Assembly: GCF_004365575.1 (NCBI RefSeq)
Contig: NZ_SOBG01000007.1
Coordinates: forward strand, 62,001-126,000
Source: Hypnocyclicus thermotrophus
GTDB lineage: Bacteria; Fusobacteriota; Fusobacteriia; Fusobacteriales; Fusobacteriaceae
Length of the DNA stretch: 64,000 nucleotides
Direction: 5' to 3'
This document shows, piece by piece, positions 40,468 to 44,562 of this stretch (positions are counted from its first letter, which is position 1; every line of letters begins with the position of its first letter). The position numbers were made by a program, and so were the translations under genes. The notes below the pieces were generated by a model. It had not been told where the DNA came from, ran no database searches, and worked only from the letters and a program-made list of their open reading frames with translations.

Positions 40468-40539
40468 ATGAAATTTTTAAAAAGAGTTTGGAAGACGTTA
40501 GCATTTATGGTAATTTCAATGATAAATAATATAGAATAA
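40468..40539 (+). CDS. 23-residue basic hydrophobic peptide
   Basis: Starts MKFLKRVWKTLAF and ends in NNIE. The first nine residues carry four positive charges and are followed by a hydrophobic stretch, so a membrane-active or membrane-inserted amphipathic peptide is plausible. AGGAAGGTGA is correctly placed before ATG 40468. A consensus promoter lies upstream, and a strong terminator begins at the stop codon, giving a self-contained unit of about 100-120 bases of RNA. It could equally be a small regulatory RNA with a short reading frame. Function unknown. Confidence 0.55.
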   Translation: MKFLKRVWKTLAFMVISMINNIE

Positions 40540-40568
40540 AAAATTGGCTATTATATAGCCAATTTTTT
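40540..40568 (+). terminator. Intrinsic terminator after the small peptide gene
   Basis: An 11-bp stem AAAATTGGCTA / TAGCCAATTTT with loop TTATA and a T-run. On the minus strand it may also terminate the Cys-rich protein transcript. Confidence 0.85.
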
Positions 40569-40583
40569 ATTTTGAAATTAAAA

Positions 40584-40855: not shown

Positions 40856-41875
40856 TTAAATTTTTTTATCTAAAGTGATTTCTTTACCATATCTTAGTTT
40901 ATTTCTCATATCTTGCATAATTTTATCAAGCTTTTCAAGTTCTGATAAAATACTTCTTTCTTTTTCTGTTACATTTATAATTTTTGTAATTCCACCGTTA
41001 TTTATGACAATTCTTTTATTTCCCATAAGTGCCAAAATAGGATCATGTGTAGCCATTATTACAATTTTTTCTTCTCCTACTAATAGTTCAAGAGCTTTTT
41101 TTCTATCAATTCCGGCATTTTCAATTTCATCTATAAGTACTATAGGAGAACTACTTAATATTGCTGTATCAGCGATCATAAGCGCTCTAGATTGACCTCC
41201 ACTAAGACTTGTTATAGGTGTATCTTTAGTAAATTTTTCTCCAGCTAATTCATTAGCTTTTGCTATTATTTTTTTTACTATTTCTTCATCATTTTCAACC
41301 ATTCTACTTTGTGCATGAAGTTTTAAAAATTCATATACAGTAAGATCCATTACAAAGTTCATATTTTGAGATAATTGAGCGACTAGTTTATTACCAGCTG
41401 AAAATCTATTTGCTATATCAACAGGATTATTATCTATATGAATAATTCTTTTTGTAGGAGTATCTCCTTGAGCGGCCCATTCAATATCAGCTAATAATCT
41501 ACTTTTTCCACTACCTGTAGGTCCAACAATACATATTATTTCTCCAGCATGGACATCTATTTTATCATAATTTTCTTTTTCACCGTATTTATTGTATCCT
41601 GGATAAATTGTAAGTGTTTTAACTTTATTATCATTCATTCCAAGAAATTCTATCATTTGATTAGTATAATCAATAATATTTTCAATTATTTGATCATCAT
41701 CAATAGTATTTTCTTCTTTTTCGATTTTATCAATTGAATCAAGGAGTTGAATAAGAGTTAAATTTTCTTTGTTTTCAACATTTATTAGATTGTCTTTAAA
41801 ATAATCTGATAAAAATGAATATTCTTCCTTTAATTCTTTTATAGTTAATATTTCTAATTTTTTTCTATTTAGCAT
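40856..41875 (-). CDS. ABC-type ATPase without a partner permease
   Basis: About 339 aa from ATG 41875 (GGGTGA upstream). The first 100 residues are an extra helical acidic domain not usual in transporter ATPases. The ABC core follows: Walker A GPTGSGKS (about 118-125), Q-loop, signature LSGGQS, Walker B PIVLIDEIE, H-loop MATHDP, then a short coiled-coil tail. No membrane gene accompanies it. It overlaps the GTPase gene by 11 bases. A cytosolic ATP-driven assembly or delivery role is more likely than transport. Confidence 0.85.
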   Translation of the reverse strand: MLNRKKLEILTIKELKEEYSFLSDYFKDNLINVENKENLTLIQLLDSIDKIEKEENTIDDDQIIENIIDYTNQMIEFLGMNDNKVKTLTIYPGYNKYGEKENYDKIDVHAGEIICIVGPTGSGKSRLLADIEWAAQGDTPTKRIIHIDNNPVDIANRFSAGNKLVAQLSQNMNFVMDLTVYEFLKLHAQSRMVENDEEIVKKIIAKANELAGEKFTKDTPITSLSGGQSRALMIADTAILSSSPIVLIDEIENAGIDRKKALELLVGEEKIVIMATHDPILALMGNKRIVINNGGITKIINVTEKERSILSELEKLDKIMQDMRNKLRYGKEITLDKKI

Positions 41876-42569
41876 TATTATCACCCAAATCTATTTTTCT
41901 TACATTTCCCATTTGATGTTCTTCCCCAATTCTTGTTTCTCCTAAACAGTAAGAGCAAAGAGCTGAAGGCATAGAGAATCTTAATTTTTTTCCTTTTAAT
42001 GTTTCAATGTTTTCATTGTTATCGTACATAAGAGTAGATAATTCATAAGCGCCTTGGCCAGTTAATCCATTTATATGTATTGTTTTTGCTTTTGGATTTA
42101 CTGAATTTACTCTAGAAGCAAATACTTCTCTTTCTGCTTGAGAAACAATATCTCCTTTAGTTATAACAACAATATCAGCACTTTTTAACATAGGACCTAT
42201 TTTTTTAGGTGTATTTATACCACTTAGATTATCTATTACACATATGGCTTTTATATCTTGAATATAAGGCGAGCATCTATTACAAAGTCCAGCACTTTCT
42301 GTAATTAAAATATCTAAATTCTTTTCTCTTCCCCACTGAACGACTTCTTCGATATTACTTACAAAATAATGATCTGGACAAAGAGAAGCAGATAATCCTT
42401 TTTTTACAGGAACACCTATTTTTTCATATATTAAATCATCATCTGTATATAGGCAATCAAATTTTACAACGCCTACTTTTATATTTCTCTGTTTGAAACT
42501 TTCTATAGTTTTAATAATAACCGAAGTCTTACCTGATGAAGGTGGACCAGAAAATGTAATTAGATTCAT
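41865..42569 (-). CDS. SIMIBI/G3E-like GTPase with cysteine pairs (HypB/UreG/CobW style)
   Basis: 234 aa. P-loop GPPSSGKT (8-15); ESAGLCNRCSP in the Walker B position (91-101) with a CxxC; TKGD (137-140) fitting the guanine-specificity loop; a second CxxC near the C-terminus (ALCSYC, Cys205 and Cys208); further Cys at 39, 64 and 110. HypB, UreG and CobW-type proteins insert metals into enzymes with GTP. The Cys pairs suggest it carries a metal. It starts one base after the upstream gene stop and overlaps the ATPase gene, so the three are translated together. The target enzyme is unknown. Confidence 0.82.
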   Translation of the reverse strand: MNLITFSGPPSSGKTSVIIKTIESFKQRNIKVGVVKFDCLYTDDDLIYEKIGVPVKKGLSASLCPDHYFVSNIEEVVQWGREKNLDILITESAGLCNRCSPYIQDIKAICVIDNLSGINTPKKIGPMLKSADIVVITKGDIVSQAEREVFASRVNSVNPKAKTIHINGLTGQGAYELSTLMYDNNENIETLKGKKLRFSMPSALCSYCLGETRIGEEHQMGNVRKIDLGDNNAK

Positions 42570-43778
42570 CTATTCTTCCTCCTTAATTGAATTATTAAAT
42601 ATTTCTTCACAATAATTAATTAATTTACCGATATCATTTGAATTTATAAAATCCCATCCAAGCCAAATAAATTTATTATTTTCTAATTTATTATCTACTT
42701 TAGGATGTGTAGATGGAAATAAACCTTTATGAGATAATATTTCTCCTATTTCTTTTGAAGCAAAAAATTTTGCTATATTTTCTAATTTATCTTTTTTATT
42801 TTTTTTAGTTAACATAAATATGGGAGATATAATAGCTCCATCTTCTGGCCATTGAGCTACCATAGGGCCTCCTTGACCTGTCATTTTTGTAAAAAAATAA
42901 GGCATAATAGTAACAATAGGTTTTTTCATTTTCAATCTATCTGATTTAACCATTTGAGCAGGATGCATACTTCTAAGCAGAGCTCTTCCAAGTCTTTTAA
43001 CTCCATCTTCACCATATAATTTATAGATATTTAATAAAATAGCGTTGAATAAATCAAAATCTGAGACAGGTAAACTTATAGAATTTTCATATTCATCTGA
43101 TAATATATCTGCCCAAGTTTTAGGAAATTTTTTATTTCCTAACTCTTCAGTATTTACCAAAAATACAGCAGGTACAACAGATATTATAGAATAATAATTA
43201 TTAGGATCTTTTATATTTAAATCTTTAAAATCTTTGTTATATTCAGTTATTCCAGTAATATCTTCAAATATTTTTTCTTTTCTATATTGACCCATTAAGT
43301 CATCTTCAAAAAACAAATCAAATCCTGCAGAGATAAATATATCTGAGATGTTTGAACTATCTTTTTTAATACTTTCTTTTAACCAATCAAGACCACTTGA
43401 AGCTGCTTTTAAATCTGCAGAGATATTTAAAGAATTTTGTTTTTTAAATTTTTCAAATCCTTCTAATAATGGGACTCTTACCGGACAAGGCAAAAGACCA
43501 GTAATTGAAATATCACTATTAGTTTTAATTTCTGAATTTTTTAATGTAATATCTTCAGTTTCAATGTTATGAGAAATAAAATCGTTAATTCCTTCAAGGA
43601 ATGCATCAACAGATAATTTTTTTAATTTTATACTTTGCTCTAATGATATTTTTCCGACAGTTTTTAACATTAAGTTATTTTCAAAACCTTTAAATCCCTT
43701 AGATTTGAAAAACTCTATTGTTTCTGGATATTTATTTAGTATTTCGATTATTGTCATTTCTTTATTTATAAAATTCAT
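42570..43778 (-). CDS. DUF1858 fused to a solute-binding-protein fold, cytosolic
   Basis: 402 aa. Residues 1-70 look like DUF1858 (MTIIEILNKYPETIEFFKSKG...), the domain also found in Ric/ScdA-type iron-sulfur repair and Hcp-associated proteins, but without the usual Cys. Residues about 90-395 resemble a type 2 periplasmic binding protein of the ferric/polyamine kind (LLPCPVRVPLLEGFEKF, PKTWADILSDEY, NKFIWLGWDF). There is no signal peptide and no lipobox, so it should be cytosolic. AGGAGG precedes the ATG. It is the first gene of the cluster, with a predicted activator site upstream. A ligand- or cofactor-carrier role is inferred. Confidence 0.8.
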   Translation of the reverse strand: MNFINKEMTIIEILNKYPETIEFFKSKGFKGFENNLMLKTVGKISLEQSIKLKKLSVDAFLEGINDFISHNIETEDITLKNSEIKTNSDISITGLLPCPVRVPLLEGFEKFKKQNSLNISADLKAASSGLDWLKESIKKDSSNISDIFISAGFDLFFEDDLMGQYRKEKIFEDITGITEYNKDFKDLNIKDPNNYYSIISVVPAVFLVNTEELGNKKFPKTWADILSDEYENSISLPVSDFDLFNAILLNIYKLYGEDGVKRLGRALLRSMHPAQMVKSDRLKMKKPIVTIMPYFFTKMTGQGGPMVAQWPEDGAIISPIFMLTKKNKKDKLENIAKFFASKEIGEILSHKGLFPSTHPKVDNKLENNKFIWLGWDFINSNDIGKLINYCEEIFNNSIKEEE

Positions 43779-43821
43779 ATTAAACCTCCTAAAAATATAT
43801 CTTTTATTTCTTTACAAAACA

Positions 43822-43850
43822 AGTATACAATTTTCTATTGATTTTTTCAG
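43822..43850 (-). promoter_or_regulatory. Predicted activator-dependent promoter of the DUF1858 cluster
   Basis: Reading the minus strand: CTGAAA (43850-43845), a 17-base spacer and TATACT (43827-43822). The poor -35 box, together with an adjacent CRP/FNR-type palindrome centred 41.5 bases before the expected start (about 43815), fits class II activation. The start point is not measured. Confidence 0.5.
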
Positions 43851-43864
43851 TAACATAAGTTACT
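43849..43864. promoter_or_regulatory. CRP/FNR-type operator palindrome AGTAAC-N4-GTTACT
   Basis: A perfect 6+6 inverted repeat with a 4-base spacer in the 121-base gap between the divergent regulator and cluster. It has the size of a CRP/FNR-family site and, from memory, resembles the GTAAC-N4-GTTAC sites reported for HcpR regulators in some anaerobes. On the regulator side a TATAAT at 43866-43871 directly adjoins it, which would suit autorepression. Confidence 0.7.
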
Positions 43865-43899
43865 ATATAATATATTATAATAAAAAAGTGAGGTATACA

Positions 43900-44562
43900 A
43901 TGAAAAGATTAGTTGAAATGTCTATTTTTAAAGGTTTAAAAGAGATAGAAATAGAAAATATTTTAAAAAAAGTAAGATATAATATAAAAAAATATAAAAA
44001 AGATGAAGTAATTGCTTTTCGTGGAGATGAAGTTAACAATATGTTAATCTTATTAGAGGGATTTCTTTATACTGAAATGCAAAAAAATGATGGAAAATGT
44101 ATTAAAATTGATGAATTAAAAAAAGGAGATATATTGGCAAGTGCATTTATTTTTGGAGAAATGAATTATTATCCAGTTGATATTTATTGTAAAAGTGATG
44201 CAGAAATATTTTGTATTACAAAATCTGAATTATTAAAGCTTTTTAGATTGAACGAACAAATACTTGTAAATTATTTAAATAATATATCGACAAAAACACA
44301 ATTTTTAAGCAAAAAGATTTGGTTTGATTTTAAAAATAAATCAATTATAGAAAAATTAAGAGATTATATAAATGAAAATATAAAAGAAGATAATACGTTT
44401 AAATTTCATAAATCATTAAAAGATATATCGGAAACTTTTGGAGTAGCAAGACCATCATTATCAAGAACTCTATCACATTTGATAGATAAAAAAATAATAG
44501 AAAGAATAGGCAAAAATCATTATAAAATTTTAGATGAAGATAAATTATTAGAAGAAGAATAA
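43900..44562 (+). CDS. CRP/FNR-family transcriptional regulator (HcpR-like by operator)
   Basis: 220 aa from ATG 43900 (GTGAGG 6 bases upstream); the frame is open further upstream, but that region contains the promoter and operator. N-terminal cyclic-nucleotide-binding-type beta roll (FKGLKEIEIENIL, EGFLYTEM); C-terminal helix-turn-helix with LKDISETFGVARPSLSRTLSHL. It lacks the N-terminal Cys cluster of FNR, so it is not an oxygen-sensing Fe-S FNR; a heme or redox ligand is possible as in HcpR. It is divergent from the DUF1858 cluster and probably controls it and itself. Confidence 0.88.
   Translation: MKRLVEMSIFKGLKEIEIENILKKVRYNIKKYKKDEVIAFRGDEVNNMLILLEGFLYTEMQKNDGKCIKIDELKKGDILASAFIFGEMNYYPVDIYCKSDAEIFCITKSELLKLFRLNEQILVNYLNNISTKTQFLSKKIWFDFKNKSIIEKLRDYINENIKEDNTFKFHKSLKDISETFGVARPSLSRTLSHLIDKKIIERIGKNHYKILDEDKLLEEE

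Follow-up and report, generated by a model that had tools for sequence, protein, structure and literature searches.

A perfect palindrome lies between a Crp/Fnr-type regulator gene and a divergent three-gene cluster of Hypnocyclicus thermotrophus, within a stretch of 64,000 nucleotides (the window; contig NZ_SOBG01000007.1, positions 62,001 to 126,000), and the question that this locus raises is which protein binds there and whether it switches the neighboring genes on or off. The answer favored here, to which a probability of about 0.88 is attached, is that the palindrome is the operator of the divergent regulator, an HcpR2-type protein predicted to act as a class II activator of the cluster and of hcp, with nitric oxide (NO) or nitrite as the likely signal. 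Operator and regulator are of an already known kind, and the site alone would be routine regulon prediction; the interest lies in the target, a cluster with a highly conserved GTPase that is connected to hcp through operator, operon and regulator and that seems to be a neglected participant in NO defence. The intergenic elements are:

43849-43864, unstranded: predicted HcpR operator AGTAACATAAGTTACT, with the core GTAACN4GTTAC at 43850-43863, matching the published motif and kept in relatives.
43845-43850, minus strand: cluster-promoter CTGAAA in the nominal -35 position, sharing bases with the edge of the operator; across relatives its consensus match is at the random level.
43822-43827, minus strand: -10 TATACT of the cluster promoter, 22 nt from the GTAACN4GTTAC core, with the predicted start at 43815.
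43844-43849, plus strand: -35-like TTTTCA of the regulator's own promoter, read from the sequence.
43866-43871, plus strand: -10 TATAAT of the regulator's own promoter, the operator filling the 16-nt spacer.

The palindrome AGTAAC-ATAA-GTTACT, found at 43849-43864 as described by an earlier reading of the letters alone (the sequence-only reading), is the sole perfect match in a scan of the whole window. That reading had also noted a resemblance to HcpR sites, and the core is an exact match to the HcpR2 motif GTAACnnnnGTTAC that was derived, and tied to a proline at position 181 of the regulator, by Rodionov et al. (2005, PMC1274295). The chance of an exact GTAACN4GTTAC in the 121-bp gap is ~3e-5 by a window-based Markov model, and that of any perfect 6+4+6 palindrome of moderate GC is ~1%; at two or fewer mismatches the pattern is at background in the window (4 found vs 2.2 expected). 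On the minus strand CTGAAA (43850-43845) and TATACT (43827-43822) are separated by the 17 nt previously noted, and a predicted start 7 nt past the -10, at 43815, places the palindrome centre (43856.5) at the proposed -41.5.

The window genome (2.2 Mb in 17 contigs, covered by pattern searches and retrieved stretches) contains three exact GTAACN4GTTAC sites: the cluster site and two upstream of its single hcp, a Prismane-family gene at C1:208683-210311. The sequence-only reading had asked whether hcp carries the motif, and it does so twice. The three promoters share one layout, in which GTTACTGAAw is followed by a -10 that stands 17 nt from the nominal -35 and 22 nt from the site, and all three sites are centred at -41.5 relative to predicted starts. 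Upstream of hcp there is an exact 58-bp tandem duplication (L016:5470-5527 and L016:5599-5656), each copy with the whole site and -10, so that the gene has two copies of one activator-promoter unit, offset by 129 bp. For a genome of this composition a count of three exact sites is unremarkable (1-2 would be expected by chance on a rough estimate); the evidence rests on the placement and conservation of the sites. Of the sites with one mismatch or none, just these three combine a -10 at 22-23 nt with a location outside genes, the listing of the window site inside an open reading frame being due solely to a spurious TTG start. The other one-mismatch sites with a -10 at this distance are all inside genes, and the genome-wide one-mismatch count equals that of the reversed control; on these grounds a wider regulon in the window genome was rejected. 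Since no other such site lies outside genes, the regulon in this genome is predicted to consist of hcp and the three-gene cluster.

Comparison of 61 fusobacterial genomes places the exact site upstream of cluster gene 1 in 27/42 and upstream of hcp in 27/50, with 0 matches to the reversed motif in the same upstreams; exact sites are also kept in many genomes whose cluster is far from the regulator. In 482 kb of sequence, a sample enriched for the cluster, hcp and regulator genes around which it was retrieved, 56 of 57 exact sites fall within target upstreams, and the remaining one separates hcp from hcpR in G055. Of 54 promoters, 52 have a -10 at a distance of 22-23 nt from the site, with a mean match of 5.5/6; at the -35 position, agreement with TTGACA is 1.9/6 vs 1.7 for random sequence, and the opposite side of the site displays no -10 peak at the class II distance. 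Because the strong -10 stands at a fixed distance on the gene side only, together with a random-level -35, the layout is the signature of a class II activator directed toward both the cluster and hcp. It resembles that of class II CRP/FNR promoters (site centred at -41.5/-42.5, strong -10, no -35), a likeness of sequence layout. That the regulator gene is symmetrically activated by this site was ruled out, as there is no -10 at the class II distance on the regulator side.

The earlier proposal that the regulator switches the cluster on is thus strengthened by a -41.5 layout that is common to hcp, kept across genera, and made up of a strong -10 with no -35. An HcpR dimer bound at -41.5 would serve as the class II activator of the operon 42570-43778 / 41865-42569 / 40856-41884, whose promoter, though it has a good -10, lacks a genuine -35, and the same regulator would activate hcp via the two identical sites. 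That the regulator instead binds to repress both the cluster and itself, with NO lifting the repression, is improbable. The site does overlap the nominal -35 of the cluster and fill the spacer of the regulator promoter, but without an activator the promoters of this layout offer no usable -35, and they have a near-consensus -10 at the fixed class II spacing; moreover, HcpR regulates hcp positively in P. gingivalis, C. difficile and B. thetaiotaomicron.

Activation of the cluster by HcpR may be joined by an effect on the regulator's own gene. The plus-strand TATAAT begins 2 nt past the palindrome and TTTTCA is 16 nt upstream of it, so that the palindrome occupies the spacer, and bound HcpR probably represses its own promoter in the window's genus. 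Of the autorepression suggested by the sequence-only reading, the local geometry stands, but it is seen only in the two genomes of this genus, most relatives with the divergent layout having the site 110-170 bp from the regulator gene. Because of this confinement autorepression is considered plausible in the window's own genus only, and probably lineage-specific.

The association of site and cluster, a matter that the sequence-only reading did not see, is cross-phylum and does not depend on hcp. In 80 cluster loci from a search of species genomes (the records being partly metagenome bins) almost every one has the genes in the order gene 1 - GTPase - ATPase, the GTPases share 77-98% identity with that of the window across phyla, and hcp follows downstream of the cluster within ~3 kb in 23. 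The exact site precedes gene 1 in 42 of these loci (Fusobacteriota 7/7, Bacteroidota 18/20, Bacillota 16/35, Aminicenantes 1), ten further Bacillota loci have GTAACN4GATAC in this place, and by a lenient criterion each of the 52 site-bearing loci has a -10, or in Bacteroidota the element TAnnTTTG, at 21-23 nt. Thirteen Bacillota loci have another exact site immediately ahead of hcp, and in four spirochaete loci (L211, L244, L266, L270) GTAACN4GTTAC is found before an Rrf2-family gene that precedes gene 1. Such an Rrf2-family regulator gene (L266:4576-4989; L244:377-865), whose protein has the cysteine pattern CPLG..C..C, precedes the spirochaete clusters of L266, L244, L211, L270, L207, L268 and L271.

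It is therefore highly improbable that the palindrome is a chance match or the site of an unrelated regulator. By our own estimate 1-2 exact 14-mers are expected in a 2.2-Mb AT-rich genome, and the one-mismatch count no higher than the reversed control would be in keeping with chance; a chance palindrome is contradicted by the position of the site, its invariant spacing, its repeated occurrence ahead of these genes in several phyla, and the lack of any reversed-control match in the fusobacterial upstreams.

The candidate binder is encoded directly beside the operator:

43900-44562, plus strand: HcpR-type Crp/Fnr regulator, 220 aa, with the recognition helix RPSLSR and the heme-ligand-equivalent Met60.

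Both domains of this protein score above cut-off (PF00027, E=8.5e-12; PF13545, E=3.2e-9), giving a cNMP-binding fold and a Crp-type helix-turn-helix, and its recognition helix GVARPSLSR has Arg180 and Pro181 as in the HcpR2 rule; these two residues and the heme-ligand Met are invariant across the fusobacterial orthologs examined. The closest solved sequence is 1o5l, which we take to be T. maritima TM1171, named HcpR2, followed by the HcpR structures 9day, 5v30 and 6np6, and identity to the solved HcpR proteins is low. In a tree the regulator groups with 1o5l (T. maritima) and 9day (P. gingivalis HcpR) with support of 97/93, and the other Crp-like proteins of the window genome fall outside this group. 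Binding by one of the latter was considered and rejected, since the three intact Crp-type candidates examined are without the R-P-x-L-S-R helix. The regulator translation has no Cys in its first 60 residues, i.e. no FNR-type N-terminal cysteine cluster. Assignment to the HcpR2 branch of the Crp/Fnr proteins is supported by these sequence features.

Met60 of the regulator aligns with the heme ligand Met68 of P. gingivalis HcpR, a protein that activates hcp in a heme- and NO-dependent manner (PMC12750200), and the HcpR of B. thetaiotaomicron binds heme and is required for hcp transcription (PMC13370916). The P. gingivalis protein has the same fold and the conserved Met ligand (PMC12750200), but in contrast to the window regulator it carries Gln at position 181 and its DNA motif is another one, and no such cluster is described for it in the literature found. 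On the basis of the family and the conserved heme-ligand Met, the signal would most likely be NO or nitrite stress sensed through heme.

The window regulon is like the published HcpR2 regulon (PMC1274295) in its operator GTAACnnnnGTTAC, its Arg180/Pro181 regulator and its hcp target. However, hcp was the sole HcpR2 target reported for F. nucleatum, and members of the HcpR2 branch were described as invariably accompanied by hcp (PMC1274295), the targets in the literature found being hcp, sometimes plus a ferredoxin-like gene, whereas here there is a conserved second target, the cluster, and 14 fusobacterial genomes, several of them near-complete, have regulator and cluster with no hcp detected. 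The cluster is perhaps an NO defence in its own right in these 14 genomes. Across the 61 genomes regulator and cluster are found together in 40, the regulator only in 5, the cluster only in 2 and neither in 14 (p=5e-8); co-occurrence of regulator and hcp is weaker (p=0.13), and no regulator-bearing genome lacks both cluster and hcp.

The cluster itself has the following features:

43785-43790, minus strand: ribosome-binding site AGGAGG of cluster gene 1, read from the sequence.
42570-43778, minus strand: cluster gene 1, DUF1858 fused to a ferric-binding-protein-like SBP_bac_6 domain, 402 aa, from Pfam, model and fold match, and hydropathy.
41865-42569, minus strand: cluster gene 2, CobW/HypB/UreG-type GTPase, 234 aa, with invariant C64, H67, C96, C99, C205 and C208.
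40856-41884, minus strand: cluster gene 3, ABC ATPase, 342 aa, with an N-terminal extension of ~100 aa.
40535-40571, minus strand: terminator-like hairpin after the cluster, weak (1 found vs 0.9 expected).

The gene 1 protein scores above the Pfam cut-off for DUF1858 but below that of the TIGR03980 hybrid cluster protein-associated domain (20.7 vs 44.95 bits), and its predicted structure (mean pLDDT 84) matches the fold of ferric-binding and related binding proteins. The GTPase model (pLDDT 70, with a weak C-terminus) finds HypB and UreG as fold matches, and the protein shares with these metallochaperone GTPases a P-loop and Cys/His residues resembling metal ligands. Unlike them, it scores far below the equivalog cut-offs (HypB 50.9 vs 121.2 bits, UreG 31.7 vs 204.2), has as partners an ABC ATPase and a DUF1858/ferric-binding-like protein, and is encoded among genes predicted to be HcpR-regulated. 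Hydropathy finds no signal peptide at the N-terminus of the window gene 1 protein, and a simple hydropathy test finds no recurrent multi-transmembrane gene, i.e. no permease, flanking the cluster in the 80 loci. With neither detected a classical ABC importer was rejected, and annotation of the cluster as such looks wrong.

Our best guess from the sequences is that the cluster serves to handle iron or metal centres in the cytosol during NO stress. More tentatively, its ferric-binding-like/DUF1858 protein, taken as cytosolic, its cysteine-rich HypB/UreG-like GTPase and its ABC ATPase, taken as soluble, may constitute an undescribed NO-stress machine of anaerobes that builds, loads or repairs the metal centres of Hcp or other iron-sulfur enzymes, a core HcpR target in several phyla that in some lineages would replace hcp as the regulator's reason to exist. 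No description of the cluster was found in the literature within reach, which left out most subscription journals and the 2005 supplementary tables.

A link of the cluster to NO would be lost if the regulator were a Crp/Fnr protein with an HcpR-like helix that responds to another signal, e.g. CO, redox or iron. This is unlikely, even though the 14 genomes without detected hcp, the low identity to solved HcpR proteins, and the His instead of Met at the heme-ligand position of T. maritima HcpR2 speak for it. Against it stand the operator common to hcp, the hcp genes that immediately follow the cluster in other phyla, the conserved Met, the Rrf2-family genes before spirochaete clusters, and the strong control of a DUF1858 gene in Bradyrhizobium, where it is induced by the NO-responsive regulator NnrR (PMC6710368).

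Several observations weigh against the favored explanation. The Fisher p-values count related genomes as independent and serve as a guide only; the cluster-bearing genomes G032 and G037 have no detected close regulator; among the 80 loci no site is found before the Cloacimonadota clusters and several Bacillota clusters, nor directly before the spirochaete clusters; and in genus g17 regulators with an RPALSR helix are paired with degenerate cluster sites having GTAAT/GTGAT halves.

The g17 sites upstream of gene 1 (e.g. in G045, G047 and G048) are GTAATATATATTAC, with the helix RPALSR instead of RPSLSR, and a helix-operator co-change is possible, perhaps as one inherited event. In genus g7 (loci G007:C3:12419-14837 and G028:C25:56118-58571) hcp adjoins a different Crp/Fnr gene that has an R-S helix and is without the heme-ligand Met; no cluster was detected there, and no close ortholog of HcpR. 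Since the Crp genes beside hcp in g7 group elsewhere in the tree, F. nucleatum-type genomes may use another regulator. Other genes also accompany the cluster: a conserved ~112-aa protein (MEIRNY...NPHG...) is encoded just upstream of gene 1 in Cloacimonadota-type and related loci (L240, L241, L253, L254, L265, L267), and in Marinifilaceae and one fusobacterial bin (L198, L205, L206, L225) gene 3 is closely followed by the gene for a small conserved protein starting MHDGC.
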